A DNA stretch of 64,000 bases from Siniperca chuatsi. Lineage: Eukaryota > Chordata > Actinopteri > Centrarchiformes > Sinipercidae. Location: positions 1,695,310-1,759,309 of the forward strand of contig NC_058065.1 of assembly GCF_020085105.1 (NCBI RefSeq), in the 5' to 3' direction. The notes beneath the pieces were generated by a model, which was not told where the DNA came from, ran no database searches, and saw only the letters and a program-made list of their open reading frames with translations. Within the stretch, counting starts at the first letter, position 1. Every line of letters starts with the position of its first letter. Positions 13,700 through 59,432 of this stretch are shown one piece after another. The position numbers and the translations under genes are program-made.

Positions 13700-15620
13700 C
13701 ATCTTTTAAAGCAGTTCAAACTAGCTAATTGTATATAAAGTAGTTCAAACTAGCTAACAGTGTATAAAGCAGTTAAAACTAGCTAACTGTATATAAAGCA
13801 GTTCAAACTAGCTAATTGTATATAAAGTAGTTCAAACTAGCTAACAGTGTATAAAGCAGTTAAAACTAGCTAACTGTATATAAAGCAGTTAAAACTAGCT
13901 AACTGTATATAAAGCAGTTCAAACTAGCTAACTGTATATGAAGTAGTTCAAACTAGCTAACAGTATATAAAGCAGTTAAAACTAGCTAACTGTATATAAA
14001 GCACTTAAAACTAGCTAACTGTATATAAAATAGTTAAAACTAGCTAACTGTATATAAAGCAGTTAAAACTAGCTAACTGTATATAAAGCAGTTAAAGCTA
14101 GCTAACTGTATATAAAGCAGTTAAAACTAGCTAACTGTATATAAAGCAGTTAAAGCTAGCTAACTGTATATAAAGCAGTTAAAACTAGCTAACAGTATAT
14201 AAAGCAGTTAAAACTAGCTAACTGTATATAAAACACTTAAAGCTAGCTAACTGTATATAAAGCACTTATAACTAGCTAACAGTATATAAAGCAGTTAAAA
14301 CTAGCTAACTGTGTAGTTAAAACTAGCTAACTGTGTAGTTAAAACTAGCTAACTGTGTATAAAGCAGTTAAAACTAGCTAACTGTATAAAGCAGTTAAAA
14401 CTAGCTAACTGTGTATAAAGCAGTTAAAACTAGCTAACTGTATAAAGCAGTTAAAACTAGCTAACTGTATATAAAGCAGTTAAAACTAGCTAACAGTATA
14501 TAAAGCAGTTAAAACTAGCTAACTGTATATAAAGCAGTTAAAACTAGCTAACTGTATATAAAGCACTTAAAACTAGCTAACTGTATATAAAATAGTTAAA
14601 ACTAGCTAACTGTATATGAAGTAGTTCAAACTAGCTAACTGTATATAAAGCAGTTAAAACTAGCTAACTGTATATAAAGCACTTAAAGCTAGCTAACTGT
14701 ATATAAAGCACTTAAAGCTAGCTAACTGTATATAAAGCAGTTAAAACTAGCTAACTGTATATAAAACACTTAAAGCTAGCTAACTGTATATAAAGCAGTT
14801 AAAACTAGCTAACTGTGTAGTTAAAACTAGCTAACTGTATATGAAGTAGTTCAAACTAGCTAACTGTATATAAAGCAGTTCAAACTAGCTAACTGTATAT
14901 AAAGCACTTAAAGCTAGCTAACTGTATATAAAGCAGTTAAAACTAGCTAACTGTGTAGTTAAAACTAGCTAACTGTATAAAGCAGTTAAAACTAGCTAAC
15001 TGTATATAAAGCAGTTAAAACTAGCTAACTGAATAAAGCAGTTAAAACTAGCTAACTGTATGTAAAGCAGTTAAAACTAGCTAACTGAATAAAGCAGTTA
15101 AAACTAGCTAACTGTATAAAGCAGTTAAAACTAGCTAACTGTATGTAAAGCAGTTAAAACTAGCTAACTGAATAAAGCAGTTAAAACTAGCTAACTGTAT
15201 AAAGCAGTTAAAACTAGCTAACTGTATATAAAGCAGTTAAAACTAGCTAACTGTATAAAGCAGTTAAAACTAGCTAACTGTATATAAAGCACTTAAAACT
15301 AGCTAACAGTATATAAAGCAGTTAAAACTAGCTAACTGTATATAAAGCAGTTAAAACTAGCTAATTGTATAAAGCAGTTAAAACTAGCTAACTGAATAAA
15401 GCAGTTAAAGCTAGCTAACTGTATAAAGCAGTTAAAACTAGCTAACTGTGTAGTTAAAACTAGCTAACTGTATAAAGCAGTTAAAGCTAGCTAACTGTAT
15501 AAAGCAGTTAAAACTAGCTAACTGTGTAGTTAAAACTAGCTAACTGTATAAAGCAGTTAAAGCTAGCTAACTGTATAAAGCAGTTAAAGCTAGCTAACTG
15601 TATATAAACTGTATATAAAG
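13700..15620. repeat. ~29-bp TATA-rich satellite array, roughly 65-70 copies
   Basis: The commonest unit combines AACTAGCTAACTG with TATATAAAGCAGTTAA. Copies differ by small changes (GCAGTT/GCACTT/GTAGTT, AAAACT/AAAGCT) and by deletions giving shorter units of about 20-27 bases (TGTGTAG or TGTATAAAG types). The shorter types cluster at 14300-14460 and in the last third, which suggests local amplification of variants. Each full unit holds a TATATAAA motif and the palindrome AGCT. No gene is seen in it. Confidence 0.95.
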
Positions 15621-51625: not shown

Positions 51626-54600
51626 TTTTAAATGTCAAGTCACAGTTTGTTCAGAAACGTGACGGCTCTGACAGGAAGTGTGTGTCCTGTGTGTGTTTCG
51701 GAGTGCGTACTTTGCGCGTCAGTGTGTGTGTGGAGTGATAACAAGAATTTGGTTTCAGTGGTTTTTATTCATTCAGCCTTTTAGTTTCATTTGTCTTCAC
51801 ACGGAGGGAAGAAGTTTCTGACCTGAAACGGCGAGCAGCCGACTCTGCTGGAGCTCACAGACACCAACGCATTGTTTCCGTTTGCTTTACGAAAATAAAG
51901 ACTTGACTTGATCCTGAATCCTTGAACTCGCATTCTTGGGAGTTCAAGGATATATATTTCAGTCCAGTTTTTGGCAAAAAAAAAAAAGTTTTAATTCTAA
52001 GCATTTGAGTCTTACAGCTGCCGCCATCTTTGTTTTGCCACCGTGGTTACAGGTGTCGCTTTTTAGTGCGACGTCAACGTAGTGATGCTTCTTTAATGAG
52101 CGTCCAGAGGGAGATTTAGATGTTTGACTGTCGACATTAATCCTGGAACTGAACCTGACGACGACAGGAAAGATGGCCGACTGAAAGTAACGTTAACGTC
52201 ACGTCCGCAGCACCTGATGAAGTTACGTCAGTTACGTTTGTCTCAGCTGTTTGTTGCTGCTTCCTGTCGAACTCTCAGCGGACTGCAGATTAATTCAGTC
52301 TATGAATAATCAGATAACATTACTGACGGAGACAGAACGTTACAGAATGGAAGAGGCTTCTTGTTAACGGCAACAGGTCAAACAGATAAATCCACCTCTG
52401 AACAAGAGATATTATTGGCTGCTGCAGGAAACTGTTGGACCAATCAGGAGCTACAGCGTGCGATTCTGCAGCTCATTCAATAAAACTTTGCATTAAAACA
52501 GTAATTCGTTCATTTGTCCATCTTTCACGTTATCGTTTAGTTTTTATAGTAATAAAAAAAGTCATAGTTCTAGTTTTTGAAAAAAAATGGTCGCCAACGA
52601 ACATTTCGTCATCATAGTTTTCGTTGACGAAATGAGCACCGGTTCGAACTCTGCGAGCAGAACTCAGGAGTCATAACTCTTAAGCTGCCGAGATGACATT
52701 ATGCATTATTTTAATTAATTAACCACATTTTTCACAATACAAACGGTGAATCTCTCCCCTAAACAAACCCTCGACCTAACAGAGGACAGTAGCCCACTCA
52801 AAGCCTCGATAGACACCAACAGCCTCTTACGTTTGTGTCGGGCAGCGTGACGGTCAGCCCAGCCGGGGTCCTCGTGCTCAGACTCAGCTGCTTCTTCCAC
52901 AGATAATAAAACTCCACGCACTGAGACAGGGACTTCGTCCGAACCTGAACGCACACAGCGACAAATTACACACCACACAAAGCGAAGCACGCGGCGCCGA
53001 CGTTCGGACGGAAGTTGAAACTCACGGCTTTCTGGATTCTGCTGAAGTCTTTGTGGTGGAGCTGCAGCGATTTAACCAGCAACCTCCGCTCCTCTGCGCT
53101 CCAGCTGACGCCTACAAGATATATTTAATACAAAATACATTAGTACACTCTTACTTGTGTCTGTGTATCATGAAACACACACACACACACACACGTGTTG
53201 CTGGGATAAAATAGCAGATATACCTGGATGCGGCTGAGCGGCGCGGCTGCTGGTGGAGGTTTCCGGAGATGACAGCAGCTTCTCCACCGTCAGCTGGAGG
53301 ACAAAAACACAAACTGACCTTCGCGTTTTGATTTGGAGAAGTAAAAGCAAACGGGAAGCTCAGACGCTCTACGGACAGAAACAGAAAGCTTATGTCACAT
53401 CAGCTTTTGAGAATGCTATCCCGAGCTAACGGGCTAATCTGCTCGTCGCGTGGTGACAAACAGATTCGCAACGCTGGATTTAACGCCGATTCTCAAAGGA
53501 GCAGTTAAACGTTTTGGGAAATACTCCCTGTTTTTCTGAGAGTGATGCCGTATGTTCAGATGGACATCAGTGTGGAGTCAGGAAGTGTTTAGCCTAGCTT
53601 AGCATAAAGACTGGAAGCAGAGGGAAACAGCTAGCCTGGCTCTGTGTAGTCTGTCAGGTGTGCTGGATTAGATTTGTTACCTTTAGTTAATTGGTAAATA
53701 GAGATCTGAATGTGGATCATCACAAAATGGCTGATTAAACACGCAAACACTCCAGTGAGATTTTACCAGGAAGTCTCCTCTGCACTCCAATAGGACGCGG
53801 AGGGCCGACTCTGGGCTGGCTCCGCCCCCTGGCACCACGCTGCAGCGAGCCATCGCCAACAGAGCTTCAACTGGGCGAACAATGTGTCAATCAATAAATC
53901 ATCCAGTGATGGTCATGATTATATCAATGAGAACATTTGTGCGTGTGCGTCTACCTCTCTGCTGATTGATGGGACGCCCCAGCTCGTCCCACGGCGCCCA
54001 CAGCAGCAGTGCATTGTGGGAGTCGGAGTGGGCATATTTTCGGCCCCGCAGAGGTGGGATGTCAGCCTGGAAGCCCCGCCCCACATTGATCCGCCTGTGA
54101 TTGACAGCTCAGTGTGAACAGGTGATAAGACTGTGACATCACTGCGAAAAAATCAGCATGATTTGTTAAAATTTTACGTAAAATTTTACGTACGGCTCAT
54201 TGATTCCTGTCGTTAGTGTTCCAGGAGGAGGAGAGGCTGTCTCCACGGCAACGAGATCACCGAGTCCATCTGCCAATCAGAGACACACAAATTTTAACAT
54301 CACGTCCCGGCTGTTATCCAATCAGCAGACGGAACTGTTTAACTGTTTAATTAAAGTCGCATATTGCTCAGTTCACGTGAATATAAAATGGTGTGGAGGC
54401 TAAAACGTTTAACGGGAATAATTATTGAAAACTTTAGAGCCAATTCTGGATCTTTTAGGCCGAAAAAACCCAAAGCGATAACGATATATATCAATCGCTG
54501 ATCGTTTTTCTTAACAGAAACCCATAAACACAAATGTTTTCTTATTTTTTATCTTTAAATTTGTTCATAAAAACTGAATATGAGAAATGTATTGAAAACA

Positions 54601-57600
54601 TCGACGGATCCAAGTTCCTAATTTGTTCCTAGTTCATGTCTAAAGTTTCATGAATGAGGCCCACGGTTTCTAAATTACCCCGAACATTTCTGTTATTTCC
54701 GTACTGACATTTCATTTTAGTAAGAAATAATAAAATGATTGACGAGGTTTGCATTTAAATGGTACAGCTATTAAAAACTCCTGCTCGCCAGAGGATGAGC
54801 CCTTTAGATTTTAATAAACTTATGATCGTTCCTCTAGCGCCGTCCTCAGGACGAACTTTAAATGTTTATCTCCACTTCCGGTGAGACTAAATGGTCAGTA
54901 AGTTCACAACCTTTGCGTTCGTACAAACACTGCAGCCTCTAGGTGGCGCTCGCAGGTTTGTTTTGATGATGCGTTGACTTACTGTGTGTGGCGTGAAGCT
55001 GCACAGTCTGCACCCTCTGCTGCCTCCCGGTGGCGAGGGAGCAGTACAACCCAGGCCCCGCCCTGAGGGGACACAGCATGGGCGGGGGGGTGTAATGTAC
55101 ACCGCTGTCACCCCCGACAACCACAGCTTCCTCATCATCACGTCCACCGCTTGCTGCGCCGTCGCCCCTAGCAACCCCTTCCTCTTCCTCTTGGCGTAGC
55201 AGGCTGCGGTAGAGCGCAGCGCCTCCGGTGGCTGGAGAGAGACGACTGCTTCTCCTCTGTCCCCCCTTGCACGCCTTGGTCGTGCCTCTGGATTGGACGG
55301 GCACGGAGACGGGCATCACCATGGAGACCGGCGGGGAGGAGCGCTCACCCTGCAGAACAAAAAGACATTGAACAGACGCTCGCGGTCACCTTGCACTGTT
55401 ACCACAAGGGGCAGACTTTGGCCGCTCAGCTGGTCCCCTCAAGGTAAACCACTAAATCTTATGGTTAAGGCTAACTGGTTTCTGGCATGTTATGTTGTCA
55501 AGTCTCTAGGGAATCATCGTAAGTCGGTTCAATGGCCTCCAAAGCGACAAAACAAGGGTTTTTTGTGTGTGTGTGTGGACCTTTTTCAGCCACGCAGCTG
55601 ATCTGGAGCCGCTGTGCGAGCGCATGTGTCCGTTCAACGCCGGCAGACTCCTGAAGTCCCGGTTGCACACCGTACACAGCAGCCTAGAACGCACCAAAGC
55701 GAAATGTTGAGCGTATAAAACACGTTACCGTTTGTAACGCCGAACACGCTGAGCCTTCATTCAGGTTACCTGCTGTCGAGAGTCTCGGTGCTGTTCTCAG
55801 GTTGCGGCCGTTTAATCTGAAAATGGACAGAAAAGATTTAAATTAAGGAAAAATAAAACTTAAGAATAAATACTGATAGTACAATGTAATGTTTTGTTTG
55901 CTGAAACATTTAATTTGGTACTTATTTACTTATTTATGCACTTACTTACTGTACGGACCTACTTCTTCATGTGTTCCCTCACGTTTTTACTTATTTACTC
56001 ATTTTCAAATTAACATGATTACAATTAGGATTACAACTGCTAAAAAACTAACTGCTAATAACTTTGTGTATGTTTTGTATATCAAACACACCCAGGTCCA
56101 GTTCGGTTCACTATCTCCTCCTCTTCTTACTCCTCCTCGTCCTCTTCTTCTTCCTCCTCCGCACTCCTCTCTCCAGCTCAGCCCAGCAAGGAGGCCCGGA
56201 GGCTGGGCAGCGCCGCTGACGTCCCGGCCTCTTCCCTGTGGAGAGAAACGGCTCTCCGAGATCCCAGCGGCGTCGAGGAGGCCCGTCTGGTCCTGGTTCA
56301 GCTCACTTTGGCTCTGGAGGAGGTGTCGGCTTGTCTGATGCGGGTGGTGCTGACCGGGGTCAGAGATCATAGGGTAGCCGTCAGACTCGTGTAGACAGCA
56401 GCTGAGGGTTTTATTTCTGTTCAGCTGTCTGGATGCTTGTGCGTGAAAATCCGGTCTCTCTTCCCTGGGATGCATTTGAGGGCCGGGGCTGGAGATAGTT
56501 GGGGTTTGTGGGTAATGAGGACTCGGACCAGGGGTGGTGGGGCTACAGAATGGCTGGGGGGCGTTGTTGTCATGGCAGCTGTCGTGGAAAAACTGGGTGC
56601 TGGAGTAGTCTTCAGCAGATGATGAGCTGAACTCCACAGAGCTCCATCTCCCCAGGGCGACTTCTCCAGACATGGAGCCCAGAGGAGAGCCCTGCAGCTG
56701 GGACAGAGTTGGCCCCAGAGGCCTCCAGGTGTTCTGAACTGGACCAGGCCTGTCACCCTGTTCGTACACGCCACTGTCAAGGAGTGTGTGAGTGTTACAG
56801 GGCAGTCTGTATGTGTTCTCCAGTTCATCTCTGTGGTCAGTCACATCATTACTGAACTGGTTCTGGAGATGGGGATCCAGGTGGGCTGTGGTCTGGTTCT
56901 GTTTCAGATCAGATACAGACAGATAATAATGTTGGGACCATAATCAGCGGCATTTCTGGTTTGGTTTTTTGATGGAATAGAAAAGACGACTATCTTACCT
57001 GGTAGGAGTAACTGTAGCTCTTGAGCAGGTAGGAAAGTTCAGAAGCTGGTTCAGATCTGCTCCAATTTGGATTATCTAAACCTGGATCATGATTTTGGTT
57101 GTAGAGGTGGTGCTGGGGCGGGGAGAGGAGGTGGGGGGAGTTTACCTGGGGGTGAGGGTCATAATGAGGAGAGTTTACCTGGGGGTGAGGGGCGTGATAA
57201 GGGGAGGTTACCTGGGGTTGAGGGGAGGTTACCTGGGGGTGAGGGGCGTAATGAGGGGAGGTTACCTGTAGGTGAGGGGCGTGATGAGGGGAGGTTACCT
57301 GGGGATGAGGGGAGGTTACCTGGAGGTGAGGGGCATGAGGAGGTTACCTGGAGGTGAGGGGGGGATGAGGAGGTTACCTGGGGGTGAGGGGAGGTTACCT
57401 GGAGGTGAGGGGCGTGATGAGGGGAGGTTACCTGGAGGTGAGGGGCGTGATGAGGGGAGGTTAATGAGGGGCGGGGAGGTTACCTGGGGATGAGGGGAGG
57501 TTACCTGGGGGTGAAGGGCGTAATGAGGGGAGGTTACCTGGGGATGAGGGGAGGTTAACTGGGGGTGAGGGGAGGTTACCTGGGGGTGAAGGGCGAATGA

Positions 57601-58814
57601 GGGGAGGTTACCTGGGGATGAGGGGAGGTTACCTGGGGGTGAGGGGAGGTTACCTGGGGTGAGGGGCGAATGAGGGGAGGTTACTTGGGGGTGAGGGTGA
57701 ATGAGGGGAGGTTACTTGGTGGTGAGTGGAGGTTACTTGGGGGTGAGGGGCGTGATGAAGGGAGGTTACCTGGGGGTGAGGGGAGGTTACCTGGGGGTGA
57801 GGGGCGTGATGAGGGGAGGTTACTTGGTGGTGAGTGGAGGTTACCTGGGGGTGAGGGGCGTGATGAGGGGAGGTTACCTGGGGGTGAGTGGAGGTTACCT
57901 GGGGGTGAGGGGCATGATAAGGGGAGGTTACCTGGGGGTGAGGGGAGGTTACCTGGGGTGAGGGGCGTGATGAAGGGAGGTTACCTGGGGGTGAGGGGAG
58001 GTTACCTGGGGGTGAGGGGCGTGATGAGGGGAGGTTACTTGGTGGTGAGTGGAGGTTACCTGGGGGTGAAGGGCGTGATGAGGGAGGTTACCTGGGGTGA
58101 GGGGAGGTTACCTGGGGGTGAGGGGCGTGATGAGGGGAGGTTACCTGGAGATGAGGGGAGGTTACCTGGGAGTGAGGGGAGTGATGAGTGGAGGTTACCT
58201 GGGGGTGAGGGGCGTGATAAGGGGAGGTTACCTGGGGGTGAGGGGAGTGATGAGGGGAGGTTACCTGGAGATGAGGGGAGGTTACCTGGGAGTGAGGGGA
58301 GTGATGAGGGGAGGTTACCTGGGGTGAGGGGCGTGGTGAGGGGAGGTTACCTGGGAAAGACGAAAGTGAGCGGAGGTAACATGTGGGAGGTGAGGGGAGG
58401 TCACTTGAGGCTGGAGGTGAGGGGAGGTTACCTGGAGCTGACACAGGTGAGGGGAGGTTACCTGAGGAGGAGGAAATGCATACATAAGTAAATAAAGTTC
58501 TCAAATAAGTGTGAAAATAAGTAATTAAGTAAAAGTGCGTAAATAGGTAAGTTAGTACGTTAGTAAGTGAAAGAAGTGATTAGAAACGTAAAGGTGTGAA
58601 TAGGTTAAATAATTAAGTACGTGCATAAATACGTAAATAAATAACTGAGTGAGTAAACCTTGGCATGAGGGTTTCCATGGCTCCTGGGTGACGAGGGGGA
58701 GGAGAGGGGAGGAGGCGAAGAGATGAAAGGAGATGACTGGGACAGAGGCGAGTGATGAATGATGGGAGGAGGAGGAGGAGGAGGAGACGAGGAAGATGGC
58801 CACAAGTCAGACAT
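50791..58814 (-). CDS. C2H2/ELM2/SANT corepressor-family protein (TRERF1/ZNF541/MIDEAS type), about 726 aa
   Basis: A nuclear scaffold type that recruits HDAC1/2 through ELM2-SANT. Exons in phase (minus): 58814-58659, 57112-56999, 56898-56131, 55816-55770, 55683-55581, 55349-54983, 54269-54194, 54094-53955, 53870-53767, 53293-53224, 53111-53026, 52944-52831 and 50826-50791 (TGA). It starts MSDLWPSSSSPPPPPPPII. One C2H2 finger reads CTVCNRDFRSLPALNGHMRS plus H. The family's VHYTPPPMLCPLRAGPG precedes ELM2 (RINVGRGFQADIPPLRGRKY, then CSVVPGGGASPESALRVLLE). SANT follows: VSWSAEERRLLVKSLQLHHK and RTKSLSQCVEFYYLWKK. It is much shorter than human TRERF1 or ZNF541, with one finger only. The last tiny exon (GQRSSRSHAAS) and the first junction (weak donor GTTTAC) are the least certain. 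The array at 57.1-58.5 kb may be partly coding. Confidence 0.88.
50975..51345. repeat. 33-bp minisatellite
   Basis: The unit is CTCGGGACCTGATTTTGGTC plus TTGTTGGTCTCGT, with about eight good copies followed by eroding ones. It lies in the last intron of the ELM2/SANT gene. The period is a multiple of three, so both strands show long but low-complexity open frames (RSRDETNKTKI on the minus strand); I regard them as artefacts. Confidence 0.9.
51585..51620. repeat. (CA)n microsatellite
   Basis: A CA run in the last intron of the ELM2/SANT gene; a shorter one lies at 53174-53193. Confidence 0.85.
54176..54191. repeat. 16-bp perfect palindrome at a splice donor
   Basis: ACGTAAAATTTTACGT starts at the third base of the donor of the exon 54269-54194 on the minus strand (GCC|GTACGTAAA). 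A second AAATTTTACG half-copy follows. A local tandem duplication within the intron start explains it. Confidence 0.7.
57128..58465 (-). repeat. 33/21-bp minisatellite with splice-like units inside the ELM2/SANT gene
   Basis: Some 45 units of 33 bases (plus-strand AGGGGAGGTTACCTGGGGGT plus GAGGGGCGTGATG) are mixed with 21-base short units. On the gene strand every unit reads CCCCTCACCCCCAG|GTAACC, a pyrimidine tract plus AG followed by a donor consensus. Both unit lengths are multiples of three. The frame reads HHAPHPQVTSP, and the units nearest the exon at 57112 are in its frame (HPQVNSPHLLSPPQHHLYNQ). Some units carry one-base deletions that break the frame. Whether any of it is exonic cannot be decided from sequence. 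Confidence 0.93.
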
Positions 58815-59432
58815 GACGTCACGCGCGCACACACCTGCTAACACCGAGTGCGCGTGTGTTCGTGCGCATGATTGCGTGCGCGCGCGGCAGCTTGCGTGTT
58901 ATCTGGAAGGCGTCTTCGTGCGAATCTGACGATCTGCAGAACGACAGAGAGGAAGAGGTTCACTGACAGCGAGCGAATCACAGCTGGAAGCCCGCTGGAC
59001 GACATCTTACAGGAAACTGCAACCTAGAAAGCATTTCCTTGGCTTCCATGTTTGACTTTTTACCTGTGAATTTGTCTGGATGTTGCTGTGTTTCAGCTGG
59101 TGTCTCTGGGTTGCAGCGTTCAACTTAACATAGAAACGGGTGTCTTTTATTAGCGACTGCATACAAACCACAGAGCAGCTGTACATCTCTGTATGACTAA
59201 GTGTGAACGTGTGATAACAGGACACTTATAAGAACTTACACCCTCAGACGATTGAAACGCAACTTTTCTTAAAGTCACTTTGCTGAGTTTTAGACTTAAC
59301 TTCACATTCAAATCTAAATATATTATATCGCACAGTGTATTCTCTTTTTATCCCAGTTATTTTCAGAAATAGTTAACAAGCAGATAAAAACTTCACTGAT
59401 ATTTTCAGATTTTTAGAGGAAACAAATAGGAT

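Follow-up and report, generated by a model that had tools for sequence, protein, structure and literature searches.

The 64,000-nt stretch of Siniperca chuatsi DNA analyzed here (the window, to which all array coordinates refer) contains, on its minus strand and within a gene for an ELM2/SANT protein, a minisatellite of 49 head-to-tail units, most of which meet at a splice-site-like sequence. With moderate confidence, we regard this array as a minisatellite seeded at the end of an exon together with its 5′ splice site, and as belonging to a group of arrays of this kind in the genome. An earlier note on this DNA had placed a tandem array at 57128-58465; the array is present, with measured limits of 58461-57113. 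Its consensus is the 33-mer GTAACCTCCCCTCATCACGCCCCTCACCCCCAG, and a second, 21-base form is GTAACCTCCCCTCATCACGCCCCTCACCCCCAG minus 12 internal bases lying between two CCCCTCA words. The two unit lengths named in that note are the commonest (18/49 and 17/49, respectively), and the remaining units range from 19 to 32 bases. Between 58480 and 57080 there are 38 copies of the word CAGGTAACC and 40 of CAGGTAA, and a 21-base word from the unit is found at 8 places in the genome, every one inside this array.

The units are splice-site-like on the strand of the gene, with the CAG/GTAA units (slash, unit boundary), the ELM2 and SANT domains and the zinc finger all sharing one orientation. The boundary reads AG/GTAA in 40 of the 49 units, AA/GTAA in five and otherwise in four, so that the proposal of a merged 3′/5′ site at every unit applies to 40 boundaries and fails at nine. 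Scored in bits with literature-based weight matrices for donors and acceptors, 38 of the 40 sense AGGT sites in the array reach 6 bits or more in both roles (array medians of 7.3 as donor and 8.3 as acceptor), compared with 18 of 533 AGGT sites outside the array on both strands and none of 56 on the antisense strand inside it. The donor CAG/GTAACC scores 7.27 bits, a value reached by 218 of the 8172 GT dinucleotides in the window, array copies counted in. The consensus units of seven other tandem repeats in the window were scored in the same way and none is comparable, the best giving 4.2 and 3.5 bits. Variation is lower at the splice core than in the remainder of the unit (12/440 versus 60/879). 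Selection on the core was considered as a reading of this difference and is not decisive: among the 33 circular windows that of the core ranks only third, and 6 of 48 units have an altered acceptor G.

Evidence for a splice-donor origin comes from other arrays in the same genome. At least 13 distinct arrays are present among the CCAGGTAA matches listed, of which 11 were examined, those on C8 and C23 being left out. All 11 lie within ~2 Mb of a contig end, and their unit sequences and spacings differ. Four of these arrays have their first GT directly after an exon that aligns to a solved relative through its last residue; these exons belong to XRCC3, creatine kinase M, PI4KB (where the junction is AAG/GT) and NUP160. 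At the start of L049, a fifth array, an exon of an SLC22-like transporter can be made out by eye; this exon matches no Pfam family, and a later exon matches Sugar_tr at 0.024, below the cut-off. Beyond the arrays, continuations of the creatine kinase, PI4KB, NUP160, XRCC3 and SLC22-like proteins were recognized by eye, in a search of the array strand only with motifs that we supplied. The earlier suggestion that the array grew from a real exon-intron boundary is therefore favored, since at least four sister arrays start at the 5′ splice sites of identified exons and several repeat the exon end, although the exon at this place in the window is itself a candidate.

Several sister arrays carry copies of the exon end as well as of the donor. 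The test compared the 12 bases before CAG in the units with those at the exon end, as a mean identity set against 140 null positions. In XRCC3, 12 later units match these 12 bases exactly (12.0; 0/140 null), the median shared end is 25 bases, and the units repeat ~24 bases of the exon end plus GTAAC, at least one unit having one change within the 24. The identity is 8.6 in the SLC22-like L049, 7.6 in L055 and 6.7 in NUP160, each at 0/140 null. The array in the window gives 6.15 of 12 (1/140 null), a value to be read with caution on account of composition, both sides being C/T-rich.

The donor half of the unit is what the sister arrays have in common, because their acceptor scores vary widely while the donor scores of the main arrays stay at 6.9-7.5. 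Median acceptor scores are 0-0.4 in L051, L052, L054, L055 and L056, 1.5 in L053, and 4.1-10.0 in L042, L047, L048, L049 and L050. A resemblance to acceptors is not a defining trait of these arrays. At position +5, nine of the 11 arrays have C compared with 7 of 30 isolated CAGGTAAx sites, for which two ideas may be offered, namely a core that acts at the DNA level, or tolerance of weak donors only.

By analogy with these arrays, the array in the window would share their origin. The seed would be an exon end with CAG/GTAACC, growth would proceed by unequal exchange or slippage, and each unit would thus be a copy of a weak donor. Exons commonly end in CAG, and the merged appearance of the sites would arise because the exon-terminal CAG and the C-rich unit body mimic an acceptor. 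The preceding exon probably has its donor in the first copy (58461), and the last, diverged unit ends in the exon 2 acceptor, in register with the array; the array would therefore be the whole intron. We infer the following roles in splicing: the intron would for the most part be excised as a single piece running from the first copy to 57113. The downstream copies would offer U1 additional, redundant sites, which may assist the weak donor and may occasionally serve as alternative donors or acceptors. A comparable element is found in PAH intron 11, where U1 binding downstream of the natural 5′ splice site enhances the exon (PMC5933811). Both cases involve a U1-binding site just within an intron beside a weak exon; the PAH element is single and proven by mutation, whereas the array in the window offers dozens of candidate copies. 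By analogy, the row of GTAAC copies could enhance the weak first donor.

The exon that would precede the array in this mechanism is a candidate whose end reads MYAFPPPQ, whose donor would be the first array unit, CAG/GTAACC. The coding exon 1 proposed in the earlier note, ending at 58659, is poorly supported, since its donor AAG/GTTTAC scores 0.36 bits and is equaled or bettered by 2858 of the 8172 GT dinucleotides in the window. A CRE-like TGACGTCA on the minus strand (58814-58821) overlaps the ATG of that exon, so that transcription could begin downstream of it. The intron that holds the array measures ~1.35 or ~1.55 kb, according to the exon model.

A number of observations weigh against seeding at a splice donor. 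The start codon context of the MYAFPPPQ candidate is poor, and the preceding exon is a candidate only. Among the sister arrays, L047, L048 and L055 start with an open frame that matches no Pfam family (the L055 frame, the one of the three compared with solved structures, has no solved relative), L042 and L056 have no exon-like frame at the array start, and the start of L052 is masked. Other arrays in the examined loci (e.g. L049 8932 and L053 689) also carry the CAGGTAA word without a known exon. Exon-end likeness is weak in PI4KB (6.1, 5/140 null) and creatine kinase (5.5, 15/140) and absent in L048 (3.4, 81/140). Of two further loci not among the 11, L034 shows an open frame with much CA repeat and L035 shows none.

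Counts over the host assembly (718,788,923 bases) bear on the same question. Triples were defined as three words at array-like spacing, with the backwards word as control, and are counted as matches, not arrays. CAGGTAA gives 1927 triples against 23 backwards, CCAGGTAA 213 against 0 and CAGGTAAC 1342 against 0. Single large arrays swell these totals, and the backwards controls span 0 to 328, which tempers the support that they give; one array on C4 accounts for most of the CAGGTAAC lines among the matches listed. CAGGTAAG is the commoner real donor. Its triples number 16 against 16 backwards, equal to the control and a further point against donor seeding, and their scarcity means that seeding by any donor whatever is not the rule. 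CAGGTGAG gives 2290 against 328 backwards, and the permuted words CAGTGAAC and CATGAGGG give 94 against 3 and 21 against 41, respectively. Four array-blind stretches (40 kb) hold four minisatellites, none with CAGGTAA, too few to serve as a control. Two side observations come from these searches: C4:30996916-30999942 holds 3 kb or more of a CAGGTAACAGG array on the minus strand, and there are, among the matches listed, ~10 places with CAGGTGAG triples near both ends of contig C1 (0.04-1.41 Mb and 36.2-37.5 Mb).

The array can also be read as an ordinary intronic minisatellite with a CAGGTAAC core that reappears close to chromosome ends at the level of DNA, being recombination-prone or otherwise favored, and whose likeness to splice sites is incidental. 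This alternative is distinctly less probable, yet serious. It fits the rarity of CAGGTAAG triples and the great abundance of CAGGTGAG triples, the preference for C at +5, the position of all 11 arrays near contig ends, the two arrays of 11 that start at no exon-like frame and the three that start at a frame without a family match, and the fact that seven or more further tandem arrays in the window have units of 20 bases or longer. It is opposed by the four arrays that begin exactly at homology-identified exon ends, and by the ~24 exon-end bases copied in the XRCC3 units, which go beyond what a bare core explains.

The dual scores of the units raise a different possibility, in which the array is a recursive-splicing or dual-specific platform and the AG/GT units act as acceptor and then as donor, either silently or as a length ladder. 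The earlier note suggested this use, along with one as a splicing decoy. We consider the platform unlikely. The median scores of the array AGGT sites are what it would predict, and joining exon 1 of the earlier note to a unit would turn its AAG/GTTTAC donor into AAG/GTAACC, raising the score from 0.36 to 7.1. The intron is short, however, nine of the 49 boundaries lack AG/GTAA, the acceptor G is altered in 6 of 48 units, and several sister arrays score close to zero as acceptors. To our knowledge, units of 21-33 bases are shorter than any known vertebrate intron, and neighboring units could therefore not be paired. The array also departs from the Drosophila recursive consensus (Y)nNCAG/GTAAGT, reading GTAACC with C at +5; human recursive sites need not fit that consensus, according to one account (PMC5126111). 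As described there, recursive sites or ratchet points share with the array an acceptor immediately followed by a donor (CAG/GT), but occur in long introns and are few per intron (e.g. 8 in a 134-kb intron), whereas the array has 40 copies in ~1.5 kb and no long intron.

A close known parallel is provided by human UBC and VCX3A, for which Duan et al. 2024 describe dual-specific splice sites in tandem repeats (PMC10809524). In those genes, as in the window, tandemly repeated units meet at AG/GT, intron ends can fall on boundaries, and repeat expansion supplies splice sites. This parallel counts for a dual-specific platform, since such sites are in use in human UBC, and for the same reason makes occasional internal splicing within the array possible. 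The UBC units are 228-base coding monomers with proven splicing, whereas those in the window are mostly 21-33 bases, show no frame constraint and are known here from sequence alone; and the sister arrays are mainly donor-like rather than dual.

The earlier note had further described the units as frame-preserving and the array as a possible ladder of in-frame N-termini. The units nearest exon 2 do read into it in frame: of 42 AG acceptors (41 of the array and that of exon 2), eight give a stop-free in-frame reading, seven of them belonging to array units and one to exon 2. Frame preservation does not extend to the whole array, since nine of the 49 units are non-triplet (32, 20, 32, 32, 31, 31, 32, 19 and 28 bases). 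With only seven usable array acceptors, non-triplet units found along the array and equally variable codon positions, the ladder is a weak proposition. The seven shift-free units in a row were also considered as a sign of selection and set aside, since at a rate of 9/49 shifts such a run would arise by chance about one time in four by hand estimate. The triplet lengths are probably due to chance, because the sister arrays have spacings such as 20, 37, 17/32/24 and 18/11.

The same data bear on whether the array is a coding tandem repeat, (VTSPHHAPHPQ)n, lying in an exon and partly spliced out, a reading that we hold to be highly improbable. An open frame runs from 57343 into exon 2, and the four edge units are all triplet multiples reading VTSPHL or VTSAHF, as a coding repeat would have it. 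The variants against the consensus are spread evenly over the codon positions (23/441, 24/440 and 25/438), nine of 49 unit lengths shift the frame, and just seven array acceptors are usable in frame; the equal variation and the frame shifts rule out a constrained coding repeat. A 282-codon open frame also runs antisense through the array on the plus strand (57643-58491), probably as an effect of the repeat.

Seeding at a splice donor, as we prefer, may be compared with two further systems. In the model of Rogers, introns are gained through tandem duplication of an AGGT segment, with ATP2A1 and 24-base repeats of fission yeast as examples (PMC4974935). Tandem duplication around AGGT provides both GT and AG in that model as here; the difference is that the sister arrays lengthen existing introns from an existing donor, rather than representing a demonstrated new intron. 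In another fish, Sparus aurata, the growth hormone (GH) gene has polymorphic minisatellites in introns 1 and 3, so that its first intron, too, contains a minisatellite; the accessible passages of that report describe no splice-site seeding (PMC3045353). The literature searched, outside which most subscription papers lie, yielded no account of minisatellites seeded at splice donors.

A broader proposal can be built on the seeding of such arrays. It holds that in this genome a class of minisatellites has grown from the 5′ splice sites of coding exons in conserved genes, that the copies jointly support a weak CAG/GTAAC donor through U1, and that the exon's own donor thereby escapes its normal constraint and evolves in concert with the array, the array in the window being an extreme case that occupies the whole first intron. 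As a whole this proposal is speculative and rather improbable. If minisatellites do start repeatedly at the real donors of conserved genes, duplication of splice sites would be a route of intron growth, and the arrays would be natural test cases for the choice of the spliceosome among dozens of equal donors. Given the bias for GTAAC over GTAAG, one could then test directly how far donor strength governs whether such arrays are tolerated.

Features of the window array, its host gene and the sister arrays that start at identified exons
Feature	Position	Strand	Remarks
Minisatellite, 49 head-to-tail units	57113..58461	minus	commonest lengths 33 and 21
Four diverged units, upstream (donor) end	58351..58461	minus	30, 27, 24, 30 bases
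Last array unit, diverged	57113..57145	minus	33 bases; final CAG is the exon 2 acceptor, in array register
Candidate end of preceding exon	58462..58485	minus	MYAFPPPQ; phase 0 relative to exon 2; assigned by analogy to the sister arrays
Coding exon 1 of the earlier note, 52 codons	58659..58814	minus	donor AAG/GTTTAC very weak
Exon 2	56999..57112	minus	phase 0; donor CAG/GTAAGA
C2H2 zinc finger	55614..55676	minus	
ELM2 domain start	54040..54093	minus	within open frame 53899-54108; solved relative MIDEAS
SANT/Myb domain, two exons	52858..53112 (53112-53023 and 52944-52858)	minus	
XRCC3 sister array			starts at exon 5′ splice site; protein homology 6.5e-16
Creatine kinase M sister array			starts at exon 5′ splice site; protein homology 6.1e-34
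PI4KB sister array			starts at exon 5′ splice site, AAG/GT; protein homology 1.3e-37
NUP160 sister array			starts at exon 5′ splice site; protein homology 2.8e-7

The assignment of the host gene to the ELM2/SANT proteins, made in the earlier note, holds, with matches to ELM2 (PF01448, 8.4e-10) and SANT/Myb (PF00249, 2.9e-8, for a peptide that we joined from two exons). TRERF1 is probably a close human gene. Two more ELM2 matches occur elsewhere in the genome, with 44 and 45% identity. No G-quadruplex was found in the array on either strand by regular expression with loops of 1-7. Elsewhere in the window, a minus-strand open frame at 48125-48442 matches RDD1 (PF15828, 4.7e-11), and a 1.9-kb array at 13707-15608 is made of 29-base units that contain CAGTTA plus its inverted copy TAACTG.

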